Positions 32,463 to 45,096 of a stretch of 64,000 nt of DNA are shown piece by piece; the stretch's first letter is position 1; each line of letters begins with the position of its first letter. A program made the translations under genes and the position numbers. The stretch is from Aliarcobacter sp. (GTDB lineage Bacteria > Campylobacterota > Campylobacteria > Campylobacterales > Arcobacteraceae), in the NCBI GenBank assembly GCA_028689025.1, contig JAQTXA010000006.1, forward strand, positions 62,001 through 126,000, in the 5' to 3' direction. The notes under the pieces are model-generated. The model ran no database searches. It was not told the DNA's origin and saw nothing but the letters and a program-made list of their open reading frames with translations.

Positions 32463-33494
32463 CTAATTCACACTCTTAATACTCCAAGATAATTTTTCTC
32501 CCCAATACATTGGAACTACACTTTCATCTTTATATTCATATGCAGTGGGAACTATAAAATCTTTTTTTATCAGTTTTACTGTTTTTTTCACAGGATTTAA
32601 ATTATAAATTTTTTGTGCATTTAAAGATACAAATTTATTTAAATTATCCAAGCTTCCATGCTTTTCAAAAAGTTGCATTAAAACTTGTAAAGCAATTGGT
32701 GATGTAAATACACCTGCCGCACAACCACAAGACTCTTTTTTATGTTTTGGATGAGGAGCTGAATCACTACCAAACATAAGTTTTGGATGTGCTCCTATTG
32801 CTGCATTTAATAATGCTGCTCTATCTTCAGGTCTTTTTGCAATTGGTTTACAAAAAAGATGTGGATTTAACATACCACCAGCAACATCATCAAGAGTAAT
32901 TAATAAATGGTGCAATGTAACTGTTGCATATAAGTTTTCATATTTATCAAGTAATTCTATTGCATCTTTTGTGGTTATATGTTCCATAATAATTTTAAGA
33001 TCAGGAAAAGCAATAGCCAATGATTCATAAATAGGCATAAATTCTTTTTCTCTATCCATTACGAATCCATTTGTTTCACCATGAATACATAAAGGAATCC
33101 CTAATTTACTCATTGATTCTAAAGTAGGTCTTAAATTTTCAATATCCATTGAAGAAACACCTGTCTCAGAATTTGTCGTAATTCCTGCTGGATAAAGTTT
33201 AATAGCAATAATATCATTTTTTATATCTTCTAAAAACTCATAAGAATAATCATTTTTAAAAAATAGAGTTACATAAGGTTCAAATTTATCTTTATCACAA
33301 ACATCTTTTATTCTTTGTTTATAAGATAATAATTCCTCTTTTGTAGTAATTGGAGGTACCAAATTTGGCATAACTAATGCCCCACTAAAAGTTTCAGATG
33401 TTAAAGGACCTACAAGACTAAGCATATCACTATCTCGTAGGTGAAGATGCATATCTAAAGGTTCATATATTTCAAAAGTAGAAATATTTTTCAT
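32463..33494 (-). CDS. pyrC: dihydroorotase (class II)
   Basis: Zinc enzyme closing carbamoyl aspartate to dihydroorotate in pyrimidine synthesis. The metal ligands are seen in DMHLHLRD (HxH), the carbamylated-Lys region [22 protein letters not shown] and FGSDSAPH (Asp). Its 343 residues match the class II form. Its start codon shares a base with the stop of glnB upstream, so pyrC is the third gene of an amtB-glnB-pyrC unit, an unusual link between ammonium supply and pyrimidine synthesis. Confidence 0.95.
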
Positions 33495-33832
33495 TAGATA
33501 GCTTCCTCATCTTGCTCACCAGTTCTAATTCTTACAATTTTTTCAATTGGTGAAACGAAAATCTTACCATCTCCAATTTTTCCAGTTTTCGCTGATTCAA
33601 TAATTACAGAGATTATAGAATCAACATCTTCATCAGCAACAATTAGTTCTAATTTAATTTTAGGTAAAAAATCAACTACATACTCAGCACCTCTATATAG
33701 TTCACTATGACCTTGTTGTCTTCCATAACCTTTTACATCTGATACAGTCATACCTGTAACTCCAGATTGAGCCAATGCTTCTTTTACATCTTCAAGTTTA
33801 AATGGTTTAATTACAGCTTCAATTTTTTTCAC
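33494..33832 (-). CDS. glnB: PII nitrogen-regulatory protein (first copy)
   Basis: Trimeric signal protein that binds ATP/ADP and 2-oxoglutarate and regulates ammonium channels and other targets. [19 protein letters not shown] starts the fold, and the T-loop [17 protein letters not shown] places Tyr51 at the uridylylation site. [16 protein letters not shown] is the PII C-terminal signature. A GlnD uridylyltransferase is encoded in the same block, so Tyr51 modification is likely. It follows amtB by 53 bases and is coupled to pyrC. Naming as glnB rather than glnK is arbitrary. Confidence 0.93.
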
Positions 33833-33885: not shown

Positions 33886-35073
33886 TTAGAATGCTCGTTT
33901 AAATTCTGGATAAGCTTCAATACCACACTCTTCTACATCTAATCCTTGCATTTCTTCATCATTTCCAGCTCTTAATGGCATTATTTTATTTATTACATAT
34001 AATACAATATATGAACTAACAAAAGCAAAAATACCAATAAATAAAATCCCTTTCAACTGTCCTAATAATGTAATAGTTTCACCATTTGAAGCAAAAATAC
34101 CAACTGCTATAGTTCCCCAAATTCCATTTAGAAGATGTACGGATAAAGCACCAACTGGATCATCTATTCTTATCTTATCAAAAAATGATACACCAATTAC
34201 AACTAAACATCCACCAAATGCACCTATGAATATTGGTGTATAGATATCATATAATTCTGGACCTGCTGTAATTGCAACTAATCCACCTAATGCGCCATTT
34301 AGAATCATTGTTAAATCAAGTTTTTTATAAACAATTTGCATGATAATAGCAACTATAATGGCTCCACTTAAACCTGCTGTATTTGTATTCATAATAGTAA
34401 GAGCAACTAAATCTGCATTTTCTTTACTTGCTATTGAGCCTACACTTCCACCATTAAATCCAAACCAACCAATCCATAATAAAAATGCACCTAATGTAAC
34501 TAATGGAATATTTGAAGCGGGAATTACTCTAATTCCACCCTCTTTTGTATATCTTCCACGTCTCGCACCAATTATTAAAATTGCTGCTAATAATGCCCAT
34601 CCACCAGTACTATGAATTACAGTTGAACCTGCTAAATCATGCATTGATAATTCAAAAGGTGTTCCTTCAAGAAAGTTTGTACCCCATGTAATATTTACAA
34701 TTAATGGATAAAGAAATGAAGCCATAATAACTGTGAATAACATCAAAGGTATTACTTTAGCTCTTTCACTAACTCCACCACTCATTATATTCACAACTTT
34801 TCCTACAAATGCCATTTGAAATAAGAATGCAGCCCACTTGCTCATTGATTCGCTACCAAATTCACCAAAAGCTAAAGAGTAACCATACAGTAAAAAAGAC
34901 ATAGATGCAACGGCATAAATAAGTGTATTTATTGTTAACACTGCTGATACATTTTTTGTTCTAACAATTCCTGCTTCCAACATAGCAAAACCTGGAACCA
35001 TAAAAATTATTAATGTCATTGCAAAAATTGCATACAAAGTGTTAATAATGTAAGAGATAGATTCTATACTCAT
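33886..35073 (-). CDS. amtB: ammonium transporter AmtB (first copy)
   Basis: Trimeric inner-membrane ammonium channel with 11 predicted helices. It starts with YIINTLYAIFAMTLIIFMVPGFAMLEAG, of which FAMLEAG is diagnostic. DLAGSTVIHSTGGWALLAA holds the conserved Asp and first pore His, LLWIGWFGFNGGS is the Amt signature, and DDPVGALSVHLLNGIWG has the second His. At 395 residues it lacks a cleaved signal peptide. It heads the amtB-glnB-pyrC unit and has a 17-bp dyad centred 40 bp upstream of its -10. Confidence 0.95.
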   Translation of the reverse strand: MSIESISYIINTLYAIFAMTLIIFMVPGFAMLEAGIVRTKNVSAVLTINTLIYAVASMSFLLYGYSLAFGEFGSESMSKWAAFLFQMAFVGKVVNIMSGGVSERAKVIPLMLFTVIMASFLYPLIVNITWGTNFLEGTPFELSMHDLAGSTVIHSTGGWALLAAILIIGARRGRYTKEGGIRVIPASNIPLVTLGAFLLWIGWFGFNGGSVGSIASKENADLVALTIMNTNTAGLSGAIIVAIIMQIVYKKLDLTMILNGALGGLVAITAGPELYDIYTPIFIGAFGGCLVVIGVSFFDKIRIDDPVGALSVHLLNGIWGTIAVGIFASNGETITLLGQLKGILFIGIFAFVSSYIVLYVINKIMPLRAGNDEEMQGLDVEECGIEAYPEFKRAF

Positions 35074-35097: not shown

Positions 35098-35151
35098 ATT
35101 ATAACAGCATAAAAAATATATAGAAAAAATTTAATGTATAAAATATATACA
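35098..35151 (-). promoter_or_regulatory. promoter and operator site A of amtB-glnB-pyrC
   Basis: On the minus strand TATAAT is at 35103-35098, giving an expected start of transcription near 35091 and an 18-base leader with AAGGAA. The dyad TGTATA-AAATA-TATACA at 35135-35151 is a perfect 6-5-6 inverted repeat centred on 35143, 40 bp from the upstream edge of the -10 (about -52). The same arrangement recurs at three other nitrogen promoters here. Confidence 0.65.
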
Positions 35152-35182: not shown

Positions 35183-35524
<342 letters not shown>

Positions 35525-35534
35525 TTATCCTTAA

Positions 35535-36749
35535 TTATGCTCTTTTGAATTCAGGATATGCTTCAAGTCCTGTTTCATGAATATCAAGACCATTTACTTC
35601 TGTCTCTTCATCAACTCTTAATCCAACAATCAAATCTAATACTTTCCACACAATAAAAGATGTTACAAAAACAAATGCTCCAATTACAATAATACCTTTT
35701 ACTTGTGATAAAAGTGCAACTTCTGGATTAAAGATTCCAACTGCAAGTGTTCCCCAAATACCAGCAACTAAATGTACAGATAAAGCACCAACTGGATCAT
35801 CAATTCTTATTTTATCAAAGAATGGAATTGCAAATACAACTAAAGCGCCACCAACTACACCTTCGATTAATGCAACATTAATTCCTAGATTAGGACCTGC
35901 TGTACAAGAAACTAATCCAGCTAAGGCACCATTTAGAACCATTGTTAAATCAACTTTTTTATATATAAGTTGTGTTAACACAGCAGCAATAAGAGCGCCA
36001 GCACATGCAGCCATATTTGTACTTGCAATTACAGAAGCAATTCCATCTATATCTTCCTTTGAACCTAATGCTAATTGAGAGCCACCATTAAATCCAAACC
36101 ATCCCATCCACAAAATAAATGTTCCAAGTGTTGCCATAGAAAGATTTGAACCAGGAATTGGTCTTACTTGTCCATCTTTTCCATATTTTCCTTTTCTAGC
36201 ACCCAAGATTAAAACACCTGCAAGTGCAGCCCAACCACCAACAGAGTGAACAATTGTTGAACCAGCAAAATCAGAAAATCCAGAAATTAGTCCACCTAAT
36301 TCAGAACCACCCCATGACCAGTGACCTTGAATTGGATAAATTACACCAGATAAAACAACTACAAATACTAAAAATGGCCATAATTTCATTCTTTCAGCGA
36401 TAGTTCCAGAAATAACAGAAGCTGCAGTTGCTACAAATACTACTTGAAAAAAGAAATCTGCCATTACGGGATATCCCATTTCTGCACTTGTTTTACCTGA
36501 TAACATTGCTCCACTTCCTATGAAGGCATTTCCATCACCATACATGAAGTTGTATCCTATAAAATAAAACATAATACATGAAACTGCAAATAATGCAATA
36601 TTTTTTGTTAAAATAGTAGCTGTATTTTTAGTTCTTGTTAATCCAGATTCTAACATTGCAAATCCAGCTGCCATCCACATTACAAGAATCCCTGCAAATA
36701 TAAACAAAAAACCATCTAAGATATATTTTACATCAGCAAAATTTTCCAT
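35535..36749 (-). CDS. amtB: ammonium transporter AmtB (second copy)
   Basis: A 404-residue channel with the same marks: FAMLESGLTRTKN, FAGSTIVHSVGGWAALAGVL (pore His), LWMGWFGFNGGS and DDPVGALSVHLVAGIWGTLA. It differs from the first copy in the N-terminal segment (ADVKYILDGFLFIFAGILVM) and in EGVVGGALVVFAIPFFDK, so the two are old duplicates rather than a recent copy. It heads amtB-glnK. AAAGGTG precedes the ATG. Its promoter carries operator site B. Confidence 0.95.
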   Translation of the reverse strand: MENFADVKYILDGFLFIFAGILVMWMAAGFAMLESGLTRTKNTATILTKNIALFAVSCIMFYFIGYNFMYGDGNAFIGSGAMLSGKTSAEMGYPVMADFFFQVVFVATAASVISGTIAERMKLWPFLVFVVVLSGVIYPIQGHWSWGGSELGGLISGFSDFAGSTIVHSVGGWAALAGVLILGARKGKYGKDGQVRPIPGSNLSMATLGTFILWMGWFGFNGGSQLALGSKEDIDGIASVIASTNMAACAGALIAAVLTQLIYKKVDLTMVLNGALAGLVSCTAGPNLGINVALIEGVVGGALVVFAIPFFDKIRIDDPVGALSVHLVAGIWGTLAVGIFNPEVALLSQVKGIIVIGAFVFVTSFIVWKVLDLIVGLRVDEETEVNGLDIHETGLEAYPEFKRA

Positions 36750-36778: not shown

Positions 36779-36832
36779 ATTATATAAATTTTATATCATA
36801 TAGTGAAGACTTTACTGTGCATTTTATATACA
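36779..36832 (-). promoter_or_regulatory. promoter and operator site B of amtB-glnK
   Basis: On the minus strand TATAAT is at 36784-36779, and transcription would start near 36772 with a 22-base leader. The dyad TGTGCA-TTTTA-TATACA at 36816-36832 is centred on 36824, exactly 40 bp from the -10 edge. The left half is degenerate (TGTGCA for TGTATA). It lies in the divergent spacer to the ankyrin gene, whose own -10 (TATAAT 36889-36894) is 65 bp from the centre. Confidence 0.6.
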
Positions 36833-36931: not shown

Positions 36932-38860
36932 ATGTTCAAGAAATTCCTAAATAAGGGAAATGCTACAGAAGAAGATTTTTTAAAAGAATTATTAAATTTA
37001 AATATGAATACTGAAAAGCTTAATAAGATGTATAGAGAGCTTAATTTAAACTTGAATAATCTACATATTCAAGATGAATATGTTTTACATTATTGTTGCA
37101 AAAAAGATTTATTTCAATCAGTACTTTGGCTTATCGCAAATGGAATAAACATAGAAATTGAAAATGCTCAGAAAGAGACAGCAATTTTTTATGCGATACA
37201 TGCAAAGAATACTGCTATATTACAAACTTTAATTGATAATAATGTAAATCTTAATCAACGAAATATTTATAATAGAACAGCTTTACAAGATGCTGTTATT
37301 AGTGCGAATAATAGAATTGTAAACTATTTAATTCAAGTTAGTAAATCTTTTGGGAATTGTGATATTCATGGTAATAATCTAATTTTTGATGCGGTTGCAA
37401 ATGGTAATATTGATATTATAAAAAAAATTGGCTCAATAAAAGAAGTTAACATAAACCAAGTTAATGAAGAAAGAAATACTGTTCTGCACAAAGAGAGTGT
37501 TATAAAAAACACTGATTTAGCTTTATTACTCATGGATTTAGGAGCAGATCCAACTATTTTAGATGGAAAAGGAAAAAATTTTCTTTTTTATGCAATATCA
37601 AAAGGAATTGAAAATATCTCAATTTTAGAAAAAGCTGTTCACTTAGGTTGTAATATAAATAGTAAAAGTGGTGATAATAAAACACTTTTAATGGAATCAA
37701 TAAATTATTTTCTTAATACTCCAAAAGATAATACTGAAATAAGAATGAGTCATTTAGAGATGATTAAAGAGTTAATTCATTTAGGTGTGGATGTTGATGC
37801 TCTTGATAGCAACAATGAAAATGCTTTCTTCTTAGTAACTAGAAGTGAAGATAGAGAATTAATTAATAGTTTCTTAGAAGATTGTAGAGTAGATTTTAAT
37901 CATCAGAATAATCAAGGTGATACAGTTTTATTGATTTTAGTTTTAAATGGGATCAGAAATAGTGATTTAATTAAACTATATTTAGAAAAAGGGGCCAATC
38001 CTGATTTAGTAAATAAAACAGGTAAATCAATTATAGAAATTTTAATAGATATAATTTTATATTCAGAGAACAGAAAACCATTAGAGTTTGAATATGAAAT
38101 ACTTTTAAATGAAGATGCTGAATATGCTAATGTTTTAGAAAATGTTTTGAGAAACTATAATGTTGACATTAACAAATTAAACTCAAAAGGTGAACCTTTA
38201 TTTTTTGATGCAATTGTTCATTTTAACTTTAAACTATTTAAATTACTAAGAACAAAAAATATAAACTTAAATCAAAGAGATAAAGATGGAAACAATATTG
38301 TTTTCAAATTAATGAACTTTAATAATGAAAATCTAATCAAAGACAAAAAGCTATATTTAAACACAATAAAAAGTCTTGTAAATGCTGGTATTGATATAAA
38401 TGCTAGAAATAATGAGGGACTAACTGCTTTACATGTTGCAGTTGGTGAAAAATGTGAGTATACAATAAGACTTCTTTTAGAATTGAGAGCTGATTGTTTT
38501 GCTACAGATAAACAAGGAAGAACTATTATTCATACTTGTATTTGGAAAAATACTACAAAATATTTCAGACTATTACATCATTATAATAATGAAATAGTTA
38601 ATGTACCTGACAAATATGGAATTAGACCAATTAATTATGCGGCATTTATGGGTAAAAGAGATTTAGTTATTGAAATGTTAGATGTTGGTGCATTAGTAAA
38701 TAATACACTAAATAAAGATCCTAAAATCTTACAATTTCTTGAAAAATTTCATCCAAATATTTTAACATTAACAAAAGGTATAGAAAAAGAAGTTGATGCT
38801 GTTAATCTAAGATTACTTACAGATAATATGATAAAAGAGTTTAATATCAAAAAAGATTAA
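36932..38860 (+). CDS. large ankyrin-repeat protein
   Basis: 642 residues without signal peptide or membrane helix, so cytoplasmic. After ~45 N-terminal residues (MFKKFLNKGNATEEDFLKEL) it is made of roughly a dozen or more ankyrin-type repeats, such as NGINIEIENAQKETAIFYAI, ADPTILDGKGKNFLFYAI, GIDINARNNEGLTALHVAVG and GIRPINYAAFMGKRDLVIEM. The last ~40 residues are non-repeat helix. Ankyrin arrays bind proteins; no catalytic domain is present. It is divergent from amtB-glnK and followed by the PDC-like membrane gene, so a nitrogen-status role is suggested by context only. Confidence 0.8.
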   Translation: MFKKFLNKGNATEEDFLKELLNLNMNTEKLNKMYRELNLNLNNLHIQDEYVLHYCCKKDLFQSVLWLIANGINIEIENAQKETAIFYAIHAKNTAILQTLIDNNVNLNQRNIYNRTALQDAVISANNRIVNYLIQVSKSFGNCDIHGNNLIFDAVANGNIDIIKKIGSIKEVNINQVNEERNTVLHKESVIKNTDLALLLMDLGADPTILDGKGKNFLFYAISKGIENISILEKAVHLGCNINSKSGDNKTLLMESINYFLNTPKDNTEIRMSHLEMIKELIHLGVDVDALDSNNENAFFLVTRSEDRELINSFLEDCRVDFNHQNNQGDTVLLILVLNGIRNSDLIKLYLEKGANPDLVNKTGKSIIEILIDIILYSENRKPLEFEYEILLNEDAEYANVLENVLRNYNVDINKLNSKGEPLFFDAIVHFNFKLFKLLRTKNINLNQRDKDGNNIVFKLMNFNNENLIKDKKLYLNTIKSLVNAGIDINARNNEGLTALHVAVGEKCEYTIRLLLELRADCFATDKQGRTIIHTCIWKNTTKYFRLLHHYNNEIVNVPDKYGIRPINYAAFMGKRDLVIEMLDVGALVNNTLNKDPKILQFLEKFHPNILTLTKGIEKEVDAVNLRLLTDNMIKEFNIKKD

Positions 38861-38883: not shown

Positions 38884-38937
38884 TGTATGGATTGTATACA
38901 AAATATATGATTGTATGCATTGTTAATCTTGTATAAT
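38884..38937 (+). promoter_or_regulatory. promoter and operator site C of the PDC-like gene
   Basis: TATAAT at 38932-38937, leader about 20 bases with AGGAT before the ATG. The dyad TGTATG-GATTG-TATACA at 38884-38900 is centred on 38892, 40 bp from the -10 edge. A second imperfect copy follows (TGTATA-CAAAA-TATATG at 38894-38910, or the right half TATGCA further on), as if two dimers could bind side by side. It also holds the 10-bp palindrome TTGTATACAA. Confidence 0.65.
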
Positions 38938-38963: not shown

Positions 38964-39839
38964 ATGAAAGAATTTTTCGAAACATACATAGAACATCAAG
39001 AAGATATTGAATATTTTTTACAAGAGAGTTTACGAAACTCAGGAATTTTATCTAATCATAAAAAGAATAATTTTGCTCAACTTTATAAAATCTTCCCTTC
39101 ACTAGAACTTATTTACATTGTAAATAAAGATACTAAAATTCAAACTTCTCAAAATTTCTATAGATATAAAACAGATGACAATGCAAAGGGAAAAGATAGA
39201 TCTCATTTAATCTCAAAATTGCATTTTAAAGAGTCTAATATTGCTTTTTCTTCACCTTATATCAGTAGTGCCACAAGTAGTAATTGTGTAACTGTTACAA
39301 TAAAAGAAGGTGATGAAATATTTTTCTTAGATTTTCAAATAGATATTTTATTACAAAAATTAAACCTAATTGAATTAAACAAACCTTTCCATGGTATAAC
39401 AAAAGTTTTTTATATAGTTGCAGGTTTTTCAATGATAATTTTGTCATTACTAACTATTATATTTTCGTTATATGATTTTGTTGCTTATTTATTATCTAAT
39501 CATGATTTATCTTTAGAGATGATATTCAAACCTATCATTGCCTTAACCTTAAGTATTGCAATATTTGATTTAGCAAAAACTATTCTTGAGCAGGAAGTAT
39601 TCTTTAAATCTTATTCAAAAAATTCAAGAGTAGAAACGAAAATTCTAACTAAATTTTTAACTACTATTATTATCGCGCTTTCAATTGAAGCTTTGATTGT
39701 TGTATTTAAGATTGCAATTAATGATTATGTTCAAATGATAAATGCATTTTATTTAATTGCAGGAATTGCATTAATTTTAATTTCATTAACAATATTCATC
39801 CACTTTTCCAATAAAAAATCAGACTCTGTTTCTGAGTAA
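38964..39839 (+). CDS. PDC-like sensor domain membrane protein
   Basis: 291 residues. The first ~145 form a soluble PDC/Cache-like domain (LYKIFPSLELIYIVNKDTK, then SPYISSATSSNCVTVTIKEG), but there is no preceding membrane helix or signal peptide. It is followed by four hydrophobic helices at about 147-180, 190-213, 228-252 and 258-282. No output domain (kinase, GGDEF, methyl-accepting) is present. Such proteins are common but uncharacterised in Campylobacterota. The promoter carries operator site C, which links it to the ammonium and PII genes. It ends at a hairpin facing the kinase gene. Confidence 0.65.
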   Translation: MKEFFETYIEHQEDIEYFLQESLRNSGILSNHKKNNFAQLYKIFPSLELIYIVNKDTKIQTSQNFYRYKTDDNAKGKDRSHLISKLHFKESNIAFSSPYISSATSSNCVTVTIKEGDEIFFLDFQIDILLQKLNLIELNKPFHGITKVFYIVAGFSMIILSLLTIIFSLYDFVAYLLSNHDLSLEMIFKPIIALTLSIAIFDLAKTILEQEVFFKSYSKNSRVETKILTKFLTTIIIALSIEALIVVFKIAINDYVQMINAFYLIAGIALILISLTIFIHFSNKKSDSVSE

Positions 39840-41705: not shown

Positions 41706-41758
41706 AGTATATTTTATATACAATAAAATATAAACTTTTTGTTTTTATACAGTATAAT
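41706..41758 (+). promoter_or_regulatory. promoter and operator site D of the AAA+/Fis-glnD operon
   Basis: TATAAT at 41753-41758, start of transcription near 41765, GAGGTGG before the ATG at 41807. The dyad AGTATA-TTTTA-TATACA at 41706-41722 is centred on 41714, 39 bp from the -10 edge; its inner 15 bases are a perfect inverted repeat. A further half site TATACA at 41746-41751 touches the -10, which could allow repression at high protein level. The spacer to the kinase gene holds another TATAAT (minus strand, 41659-41654). Confidence 0.65.
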
Positions 41759-41806: not shown

Positions 41807-42559
41807 ATGCAAAATTTTATTGCAGAAGATGGAATTTCAAAAGAAATATTAAATTCAGCTAAACTTTTACAAGCTGTTCAAGTTAATGCACTTATTTTAG
41901 GTAATGCAGGTACAGGGAAAAAAACTTTAGCAAAATATATATTGCCAAATTCTGATATTTATGAGGCTAAAAATCTACAAAAAGATATTAGTGATGATAT
42001 ATTAGTTTTACAAAATGAAGCAATAATTATAGATAAAATAAATGAAATAACAAATATTGATCTATTTTTAAAATGGTTAGAAGATAATAATATTAGAGTA
42101 ATTGCAATTTCAAATACAGAGAATTTAAATCAAAAACTAAAAGATATTTTTTCAATCAACCTTGAAATACCAAACCTAAGTAAAAGAGAAGAAGATACAA
42201 AAGCTTTAGTAAATAAATTTTCACAAGAAGCAAGTTCTATCTTAGATTTACCCAAAATTCCCTCTTCAAAACTAATCGTTAATATATCAAATAACACACA
42301 TAGTTTGAGAAAGTCAATCTATTTTTCATACCTATTTGAAACTATTGGAGAACATGAAATTTTAATGTTCTTAGAAAAATATCTAAGTGAAAATTTAAAA
42401 GGTGAAAACTCATATAAAGAGTTATCATATATTTTTGAAGTTCCATTATTAAAAGCTTCTACAAAAAAATATAAATCTCAAGTACAAATAGCTAAACATT
42501 TAGGTTTAAATAGAATTACATTAAGAAAGAAACTGGAAATTTATAAAGATTTATTATGA
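41807..42559 (+). CDS. degenerate NtrC-like AAA+ protein with Fis-type DNA-binding domain
   Basis: 250 residues. There is no receiver domain; the AAA+ part begins at once. Walker A is LGNAGTGKKT (32-41), like GESGTGKE of sigma54 activators. Walker B is IIID followed by Lys77 instead of the catalytic Glu. Only ~36 residues separate the two motifs, too few for the GAFTGA loop that contacts sigma54. INLEIPNLSKREEDTKALV matches the LPPLRERxEDIxxL region. The C-terminal SQVQIAKHLGLNRITLRKKL is a Fis/NtrC helix-turn-helix. It overlaps glnD by four bases. I infer a DNA-binding nitrogen regulator that no longer activates sigma54. Confidence 0.8.
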   Translation: MQNFIAEDGISKEILNSAKLLQAVQVNALILGNAGTGKKTLAKYILPNSDIYEAKNLQKDISDDILVLQNEAIIIDKINEITNIDLFLKWLEDNNIRVIAISNTENLNQKLKDIFSINLEIPNLSKREEDTKALVNKFSQEASSILDLPKIPSSKLIVNISNNTHSLRKSIYFSYLFETIGEHEILMFLEKYLSENLKGENSYKELSYIFEVPLLKASTKKYKSQVQIAKHLGLNRITLRKKLEIYKDLL

Positions 42560-45096
42560 CAGATTTAAATATACAAATAGAAGAATTAATTTCAAACAAT
42601 GCTACAGACTTTCAAATTTCAAAAGTTTTTAAAACTTACTATAAAAACTATCTAGACTCAATAGATACCACTGTTGAAACAACTGGTGGTAAAGATTTTT
42701 TCATAAAACATACAAAACATACTGATAAGTTTTTGATTTTACTTTATAAATATATTTTACGAAAAAATTTTACTTCACATCAACCAATGAGTACATCAAT
42801 TCCTATTAGTTTAATTGCCTTAGGTTCTTATGGAAGAGAACAACTTTGTATCTATTCTGATATTGATATTATGATTTTATATGAAAATGTAAAAGGTTAT
42901 AATCTAAAAACACTTATGGAAGAGTTCATCACACTTGCATGGGATTGTGGATTAAAATTAGGTTCAAGAGTTCATGAGTTAAATGAAATTTCTGAAGCTG
43001 TAAAAGGAGATATAACTATAAAAAGTTCTATCTTAGAATCAAGACTGATTTATGGTTCAAAAATCCTTTGGTATGGATATGAAAATGTTTTAACAAAAAT
43101 TAGAAAAACAAACCAAAAAGAGTTTGTTTTAGACAAACTTGAAGAACATAAACAAAGACTATTGAAATATCCACTAAAAATGGAACCAAATATCAAAGAT
43201 GGATATGGTGGAATTAGAGAATCTAATATGATGTATTGGATGGCAAATATTTTATATGGAGCTACAAATACAAAAGATTTAATTGGTACTCAATTTACAG
43301 AAGATGAATACAAAAAATATAGACAAGCTTTAGAATTTATATTTCAAGTAAGAAATGCTTTACATAATATTGCAAGAAAAAAACAAGATCAAGTTACTTT
43401 TGATATTTTACCAGATTTGAGTTCTAAACTTGGATTTAAAAATAAATCTAGATATACAAAAGATAGACAATGTATGTCAAAAATAATATCTTCTTTACAT
43501 ATAATCCACAGTTTTACAGCAACTATGGTAAAAAAATTCACAAGATTAATTATCTTTGAAGCATCAAATATTCCAAAATTAAAAGAGTTGAGATTCAAAA
43601 AAAATCTTTATATTATTGAAAATACTCTATTTTGTTCATTTCATAGAAAAGAGCAAACTTTAAATACATTATTAAAAGAGTTAATTGAACTTCCTACAAA
43701 TGTTGAAAGATTTGATAGATCTTATATCTATTATGCAAGTCGTGCTAAATTACCAAAAGTTCAAACAAAAGAACTAAAGAAAAATGTAAAAATAATTTTA
43801 TCTAAGCCAAATTTATACCCTTTAATAAAATTAATCTACAATGCTGGATTATTTCAAGCAGTACTTCCAAGTACAAAAAAAATAATTAATCAGCCTCAAT
43901 TTGATGGTTATCATAGACACCCTGTTGATATTCACTCTATTAAAACATTAAAATTCTCTCAAAATATTGAAGATAGTTATATCAAATCAATATTTGAAGA
44001 GTTAACAAATGAACAAAAAATTCTAGTTAGATTAGTTGCATTTTTCCATGATATTGGAAAAGGAAGAACTGAAGACCATCATATTATTGGAGAAAAATTA
44101 TTCAAAAGTATGATGAAATCTTTTGATTTTAGTGAAGAGTTTATAAAACTTGGAGCTAGACTTGTAAGATACCACAATACAATGTCTTACATGGCAACCC
44201 ATGAAGATATATATTCAGAAAAAACTATTTTAAATTTTACAGGACTTATAAAAACTAAAGAAGCCTTAAAAATGTTATATGTAATTACATATTGCGATAT
44301 ATCTGCTGTTGGTAAAAATATTTTCAATAGCTCTACAGCTTCTTTATTAAAACAACTTTACTTGCAATCACTTCCTGCTTTTGAGAATGAAGATTTTTTA
44401 AATGAAAGTAGAAGAAGAATAGCAAAACAAAATGCAATTAAAAATCTTGATAAATACAAAGAATTACCTAATAATTTACAAAAGAAAATTATGTATATTG
44501 CATCAAATCAAATCTTTTTGAGATTAAAAGCTGAAGACATTTTAGATATTGCAATAAAAGCGAAAGATGTTGAAACTTATATCTATAAAATTACAAATGA
44601 AAATCAATTAACAATTAGAATTATTAGAAAATCACCTTTAAATTTAGGATATTTACTAGGTAAATTAGAATTTTTAAATATTGCGGCTATGAATATTTTC
44701 AAGCTTTATGATAATAAAAAAGCTTTTGATATCTCTTTTTCTGAGAAAGTTGATGATGAAGATTTATTTTTAATTGAAGAAATTATAAAAGATTCATTTG
44801 ATATGAGTAAAACAACTACCGCTAAAACTCCACTTATTAGAAAAGATGACATTAAAATTGATTGTAACCACACAGCTTATTTAGCTTCTATGCAAATTAT
44901 TGCAAAAGATCAAAAAGGTTTATTTGCTTATGTTGCTAGAATATTTGATGATTTCAATGTGGAAATTGAAAGTGCAAAACTTCATACTCTAAATGGTTAT
45001 GCAAGGGACTTAATATTAATAGAAAAAAATGGGAATTTCTGTTCAAAACAAGAAGAAATTATAAATCTTATGTGTATTGGTGAAAAAGAGGATTAA
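42556..45096 (+). CDS. glnD: PII uridylyltransferase/uridylyl-removing enzyme
   Basis: Senses glutamine and adds or removes UMP on PII Tyr51. Residues ~88-110 hold the nucleotidyltransferase motif ALGSYGREQLCIYSDIDIMI (Asp pair), the HD hydrolase domain has HRHPVDIHSIKTL and AFFHDIGKGRTEDHH at about 495-510, and a glutamine-binding ACT domain lies near 773-840 (MQIIAKDQKGLFAYVARIFD). Its 846 residues are standard. Both PII proteins in the window keep Tyr51, so the cascade is complete except for glutamine synthetase control. It starts as ATGA on the end of the AAA+/Fis gene. Confidence 0.92.
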   Translation: MTDLNIQIEELISNNATDFQISKVFKTYYKNYLDSIDTTVETTGGKDFFIKHTKHTDKFLILLYKYILRKNFTSHQPMSTSIPISLIALGSYGREQLCIYSDIDIMILYENVKGYNLKTLMEEFITLAWDCGLKLGSRVHELNEISEAVKGDITIKSSILESRLIYGSKILWYGYENVLTKIRKTNQKEFVLDKLEEHKQRLLKYPLKMEPNIKDGYGGIRESNMMYWMANILYGATNTKDLIGTQFTEDEYKKYRQALEFIFQVRNALHNIARKKQDQVTFDILPDLSSKLGFKNKSRYTKDRQCMSKIISSLHIIHSFTATMVKKFTRLIIFEASNIPKLKELRFKKNLYIIENTLFCSFHRKEQTLNTLLKELIELPTNVERFDRSYIYYASRAKLPKVQTKELKKNVKIILSKPNLYPLIKLIYNAGLFQAVLPSTKKIINQPQFDGYHRHPVDIHSIKTLKFSQNIEDSYIKSIFEELTNEQKILVRLVAFFHDIGKGRTEDHHIIGEKLFKSMMKSFDFSEEFIKLGARLVRYHNTMSYMATHEDIYSEKTILNFTGLIKTKEALKMLYVITYCDISAVGKNIFNSSTASLLKQLYLQSLPAFENEDFLNESRRRIAKQNAIKNLDKYKELPNNLQKKIMYIASNQIFLRLKAEDILDIAIKAKDVETYIYKITNENQLTIRIIRKSPLNLGYLLGKLEFLNIAAMNIFKLYDNKKAFDISFSEKVDDEDLFLIEEIIKDSFDMSKTTTAKTPLIRKDDIKIDCNHTAYLASMQIIAKDQKGLFAYVARIFDDFNVEIESAKLHTLNGYARDLILIEKNGNFCSKQEEIINLMCIGEKED

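Follow-up and report, generated by a model that had tools for sequence, protein, structure and literature searches.

Introduction

Global nitrogen regulators that act at housekeeping-sigma promoters through short palindromes are found in other phyla as NtcA, GlnR and TnrA. These belong to the CRP, OmpR and MerR families, respectively, and are unrelated to the protein described here, so any likeness of function is convergent only. The classical NtrC site is 17 bp long with an N5 geometry, the same as TGTATA-N5-TATACA, and NtrC of Rhodobacter capsulatus uses distant tandem sites. NtrC proteins that lack GAFTGA and work at sigma70 promoters already exist. R. capsulatus NtrC is one such nitrogen regulator; it keeps a phosphorylated receiver and the kinase NtrB and, as cited in PMC10274813, reportedly requires ATP binding but not hydrolysis. 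Caulobacter NtrC, a nitrogen master regulator at sigma70 promoters with a deletion of L1/GAFTGA, is required for glnA (PMC10274813). It also has a receiver and NtrB, and needs both Walker A and Walker B residues. Vibrio VpsR has a bEBP fold without GAFTGA and needs no phosphorylation to act at sigma70 promoters, but it is a c-di-GMP-bound biofilm regulator that keeps a receiver-like domain and controls an unrelated regulon.

The authors of the Arcobacter butzleri genome paper found it remarkable that NtrB and NtrC homologs are missing, and pointed out that RpoN is lacking as well (PMC2147049). Here we describe a receiver-less, GAFTGA-less NtrC-family protein (the regulator) encoded in a 64,000-nucleotide stretch of an Aliarcobacter sp. 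contig (JAQTXA010000006.1), which we refer to as the window. Our literature searches in Arcobacter and other Campylobacterota found neither a named regulator nor the TGTATA-N5-TATACA motif. We consider it quite probable that its lineage relies on this protein as nitrogen master regulator and that the protein acts through this dyad at sigma70 promoters, with DNA contact and activation being the steps that we infer from sequence.

Results

A degenerate relative of NtrC

The regulator gene (41807..42559, plus strand) encodes 250 residues beginning M-Q-N-F, with a degenerate AAA+ domain and a Fis-type helix-turn-helix (HTH). The first-pass annotation had read the open frame as keeping Walker A, the RExED region and the Fis HTH while having lost the receiver, the Walker B Glu and the space for GAFTGA, and each of these points held. 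Walker A is GNAGTGKK (residues 32-39), the hydrophobic Walker B strand reads IIID76-K77 with Lys77 replacing the catalytic Glu, KREED at residues 126-130 is the equivalent of the RExED region, and the Fis/NtrC-type HTH occupies residues 225-245. The predicted structure leaves only about 19 residues between beta2 (51-53) and the Walker B strand (72-76). The regulator and all aligned family members begin at the AAA+ domain without a receiver, and the GAFTGA loop is absent from every one of them.

Profile searches place the protein near NtrC at low scores. Pfam Sigma54_activat matched at 21.0 bits (cut-off 20.2) over residues 7-53 only, and the top NCBIfam model, NtrC TIGR01818, matched with an E-value of 3e-8 at 32.9 bits, far under its cut-off of 558.6. 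Positions 400-461 of TIGR01818 aligned with residues 186-244, which hold the Fis-type C-terminal HTH, and this model was matched by 26/26 family members. The AlphaFold model is fair: pLDDT averages 82 and drops over the C-terminal third. Structure comparisons of this model with Foldseek and VIA-align gave Z scores of 16-17 over about 180 residues for NtrC4, FlrC and NtrC1, with NtrX and VpsR (7v2b, 7v2v) also matched. The fold as modelled is thus that of a bEBP minus the sigma54-contacting loop.

Among 47 diverse sequences of the family, there is no variation at Gly32 and Gly37 of Walker A, at R127 and D130, or at S224, Q225, N235, R236 and T238-K242 of the HTH. Walker A retains its Lys in 45 sequences and has Arg in the remaining two, and E129, which lies between the invariant R127 and D130, is kept in 42. 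The Walker B acids are unconserved, with D76 in 13/47 sequences and Glu at position 77 in 2/47. A kept Walker A together with a lost Walker B would fit nucleotide binding without hydrolysis, the behavior reported for R. capsulatus NtrC (PMC10274813). The family differs from Caulobacter NtrC in its unconserved Walker B, and from R. capsulatus NtrC in having lost both the Walker B acids and the receiver.

Distribution and gene contexts

We found the regulator in 81 of 104 Arcobacteraceae genomes. A profile search of 399 Campylobacterales genomes gave relatives in 282, mostly as open frames of 245-310 aa. It is a family-wide protein and not a one-genome oddity or a relic. Three gene contexts recur. 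In crown Arcobacteraceae the regulator gene stands with glnD, in deep Arcobacteraceae and relatives it stands with a gene for a PAS protein and with amtB-glnK, and in other Campylobacterales families its relatives lie between an FKBP gene and fabD (L230, L237, L238, L243 and similar loci). In the window the PII uridylyltransferase gene glnD (42556..45096, plus strand, ATG at 42556) is overlapped by the regulator gene by 4 nt. The coupling to glnD proposed in the first-pass annotation is thus real at this locus but lineage-specific; as an obligatory arrangement it was rejected, given the PAS protein, amtB-glnK or FKBP/fabD neighbors of deeper branches. One locus (L065, G042:C13) carries a second, diverged pair of regulator and PAS protein adjoining another type of ammonium transporter. 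In a subgroup of the window's own genus (G015, G016, G024, G026 and G027) the regulator, the PAS protein and glnD are all missing together.

Dyads at a fixed distance from the -10 box

Four intergenic dyads occur in the window. Dyad D (AGTATATTTTATATACA, one mismatch; 41706..41722, plus strand) lies in the regulator's own promoter, 30 bp upstream of a TATAAT -10 box (41753..41758, plus strand) that is immediately preceded by a TATACA half site (41746..41751, plus strand), in agreement with an earlier reading of this promoter as a full site plus a half site. Dyad C (TGTATGGATTGTATACA, one mismatch; 38884..38900, plus strand) is 31 bp upstream of a TATAAT box (38932..38937, plus strand) and by its position targets the gene of a 291-aa membrane protein that belongs to no Pfam family (38964..39839, plus strand). 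The other two are on the minus strand. Dyad B (TGTATATAAAATGCACA, two mismatches; 36816..36832) with its TATAAT box 31 bp downstream (36779..36784) precedes the ammonium transporter gene amtB1 (35535..36749), which is followed by glnK (35183-35521). The perfect dyad A (35135..35151), likewise with a TATAAT box at 31 bp (35098..35103), precedes a second ammonium transporter gene, amtB2 (33886..35073), which is followed by glnK/glnB (33494-33832).

By number alone dyads are not above chance in the window, where 11 matches at ≤2 mismatches compare with 8.75 expected. Their placement stands out, as all four intergenic dyads (starting at 35135, 36816, 38884 and 41706) have a 6/6 TATAAT 30-31 bp downstream against a per-site intergenic background of 1%. 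The same spacing recurs in relatives: in 42 of the 44 glnA promoters that carry a dyad, a TATAAT-like hexamer starts 30-32 bp past it, a TATAAT-like box at 30-32 bp was likewise seen for 106 dyad-orientation cases lying no more than 300 bp from a gene, and the spacing is also held at amtB of deeper Arcobacteraceae and of one neighboring family. At nifA of this genome, a dyad with one mismatch (L263:701-717) lies 31 bp upstream of TATAAT. No -35 element was recognizable in dyad-bearing glnA promoters. The target promoters thus appear to be of sigma70 type, and the distance to the -10 box would put the dyad centre near -52.

Such a layout would be expected of an activator that contacts sigma70 polymerase. 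The sign of regulation is not fixed by anything in the sequence, and the GAFTGA-less NtrC of Caulobacter acts at sigma70 promoters both as activator and as repressor (PMC10274813), so the same protein at the same sites might instead repress, or do both, with a dyad near -52 blocking or looping out RNA polymerase under nitrogen excess. We consider this unlikely: the dyad overlaps neither the -10 nor the -35 position, the rigid 30-32 bp spacing is what contact with polymerase would call for, and the lack of a recognizable -35, like the position and the spacing, is typical of activation.

Two further genes of this region deserve mention. The 291-aa membrane protein gene is dyad-linked in relatives too and is kept beside amtB in another family (L232); its product might be a new component of ammonium sensing. 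A gene for a 642-aa ankyrin-repeat protein (36932-38860) lies between amtB1 and the regulator, and another ankyrin protein is encoded near the regulator at L064.

The dyad follows the regulator

In the window's own genus, the 17 genomes with the regulator have 2-9 exact dyads each (mean 5.4), whereas of the 14 genomes without it 13 have none and one has a single copy (mean 0.07). A reversed-pattern control gave similar values with and without the regulator (0.47 vs 0.36). We also compared the family at glnA, which was found in 100/104 Arcobacteraceae genomes. A dyad with ≤1 mismatch is present 5' of glnA in 42 of 48 cases with the regulator vs 2 of 22 without it, almost always 82-93 bp ahead of the start codon. 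The dyad is thus not kept where the regulator is lost, as the link between them drawn in the first-pass annotation would have it. Both apparent exceptions are fragmented MAGs (G040 and G049), and since G040 has the PAS partner, its regulator may be missing from the assembly only. The reverse case, a regulator without a glnA dyad, is seen in G034, G070, G100, G102 and G103 and in g20 members with the regulator, and in G069 the dyad is weak.

The 31 genomes of the genus are not independent, because loss of the regulator within the genus looks like one event in a GlnA tree that includes 4 of the 14 genomes. Further losses are seen in g5, G051, G073 and G101, and independent joint losses in the family number perhaps 4-6. 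The protein-dyad link is correlational, and with so few losses, in which whole gene sets vanish together, another transcription factor could bind the dyad while the co-lost regulator acts elsewhere, for example as a partner of GlnD or PII. We regard this as less probable even than repression. In the window's genus the regulator gene has a dyad of its own, in deeper branches it adjoins dyad-bearing amtB-glnK, and its HTH is of the NtrC/Fis type, whose known sites share the 17-bp N5 geometry; the co-lost PAS protein has no recognizable DNA-binding domain. Binding of the dyad by the regulator is thus the reading that we prefer.

This reading is limited to Arcobacteraceae and a few neighbors, because exact dyads are near background in the families that have the regulator gene between FKBP and fabD, and in those families no dyad with a spaced -10 box was found near the regulator gene. 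The same dyad across all Campylobacterales families that have the regulator was not seen.

Predicted regulon

A dyad with a spaced -10 box precedes amtB1, amtB2, glnA, gltB, gdhA, nifA and a gene for a nirB-type nitrite reductase, as well as genes for a quinohemoprotein amine dehydrogenase, an outer-membrane porin and the 291-aa membrane protein. We take the nirB and porin genes to be such from recognizing their sequences and not from a family search. In the window's genus the pair of regulator and glnD is preceded in the same way, and dyads also lie 5' of a third amtB and of a circularly permuted ATP-grasp gene. Taken together, these predicted targets are those to be expected of a global nitrogen regulator. 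Universal autoregulation was rejected, as the regulator's own promoter has a dyad at ≤1 mismatch in only 27 of 59 sequences.

The regulator and its dyads persist without rpoN

The first-pass annotation pointed to published descriptions of A. butzleri that report no rpoN. This holds for that species, which lacks rpoN, NtrB and NtrC (PMC2147049), but does not extend to the present genome, where rpoN was found with nifH in one nif cluster (L262:3702-4949 and L262:8030-8944). NifA, whose gene (L263:781-2313) follows about 17 kb further down that contig, is the only full-length bEBP of this genome. With rpoN in this genome and a dyad at nifA, the regulator could still act with sigma54 where rpoN exists, as a helper or a decoy. 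This is very improbable, since the regulator has neither GAFTGA nor the Walker B Glu, no GG-N10-GC (-24/-12) element was found at the four window promoters, and both the regulator and its dyads are kept in genomes that lack rpoN. Only 33 of the 104 Arcobacteraceae genomes have rpoN and 49 have the regulator without it; rpoN-less genomes of the window's genus such as G002, G004 and G006 retain 6, 7 and 9 dyads. From these counts and the missing -24/-12 elements, sigma54 appears not to be needed for the regulator and its dyads to persist, which supports the earlier proposal that the regulator acts via the dyad at promoters of sigma70 type.

A PAS protein as candidate sensor

The 226-aa PAS-like protein of this genome (L253:3475-4155; G000:C16:101977-102648) is encoded directly behind rpoD, the sigma70 gene. 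Here its gene is unlinked to the regulator, but in other genomes the two adjoin. In the 104 Arcobacteraceae genomes both are present in 80 and both absent in 22, with one discordant genome of each kind (Fisher 3e-20, a value that ignores phylogeny). Against 18,950 NCBIfam models, members of the PAS protein family matched only NtrB (8/21, best 2e-5) and the PAS S-box (2/21). No invariant His occurs in their alignment, the profile did not match any of four histidine kinases, searches of PDB sequences gave no relevant match, and those of Pfam gave stray weak matches only. The PAS protein is probably an eroded NtrB, or pseudo-NtrB, an identification that we treat as a lead.

Discussion

In the mechanism that we propose, all that is left of an NtrC ancestor is a Fis-type HTH and an AAA+ domain that probably binds nucleotide without hydrolysing it. 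The regulator would bind TGTATA-N5-TATACA either as a dimer or as a higher oligomer, centred some 52 bp before the transcription start, at promoters with a good -10 box and no recognizable -35, and would most likely recruit sigma70 RNA polymerase to the ammonium uptake and assimilation genes amtB, glnK, glnA, gltB and gdhA. Further targets would be nirB for nitrite assimilation, the nitrogen-fixation activator gene nifA, glnD and, in some family members, the regulator gene itself. Because the regulator has no receiver, the nitrogen signal would have to arrive by another route, for which the eroded NtrB-like PAS protein encoded beside rpoD is the best candidate, possibly read by PII proteins under the control of GlnD.

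Such a system is known in kind from the NtrC proteins without GAFTGA and would be new in form: the regulator is receiver-less, probably hydrolysis-dead and family-wide, with a possible non-kinase partner and a single dyad fixed at a predicted rigid position near -52 where R. capsulatus NtrC has distant tandem sites. Whether a two-component system has here eroded to a phosphorylation-free pair of pseudo-NtrB and pseudo-NtrC that runs a nitrogen regulon from sigma70 promoters and depends on PII/GlnD or nucleotides instead of phosphotransfer, we judge to be evenly balanced. If true, this pair would connect PII with NtrC-type regulation by a route that needs no kinase. It would also mean that a two-component system can lose both phosphotransfer and sigma54 and keep its job, and it would make a minimal sigma70-acting NtrC available to structural work. 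Nitrogen control of the Arcobacter type, without NtrB and NtrC, now has a candidate regulator, site, promoter geometry and regulon, and this candidate system spans a family of environmental, some nitrogen-fixing, bacteria.
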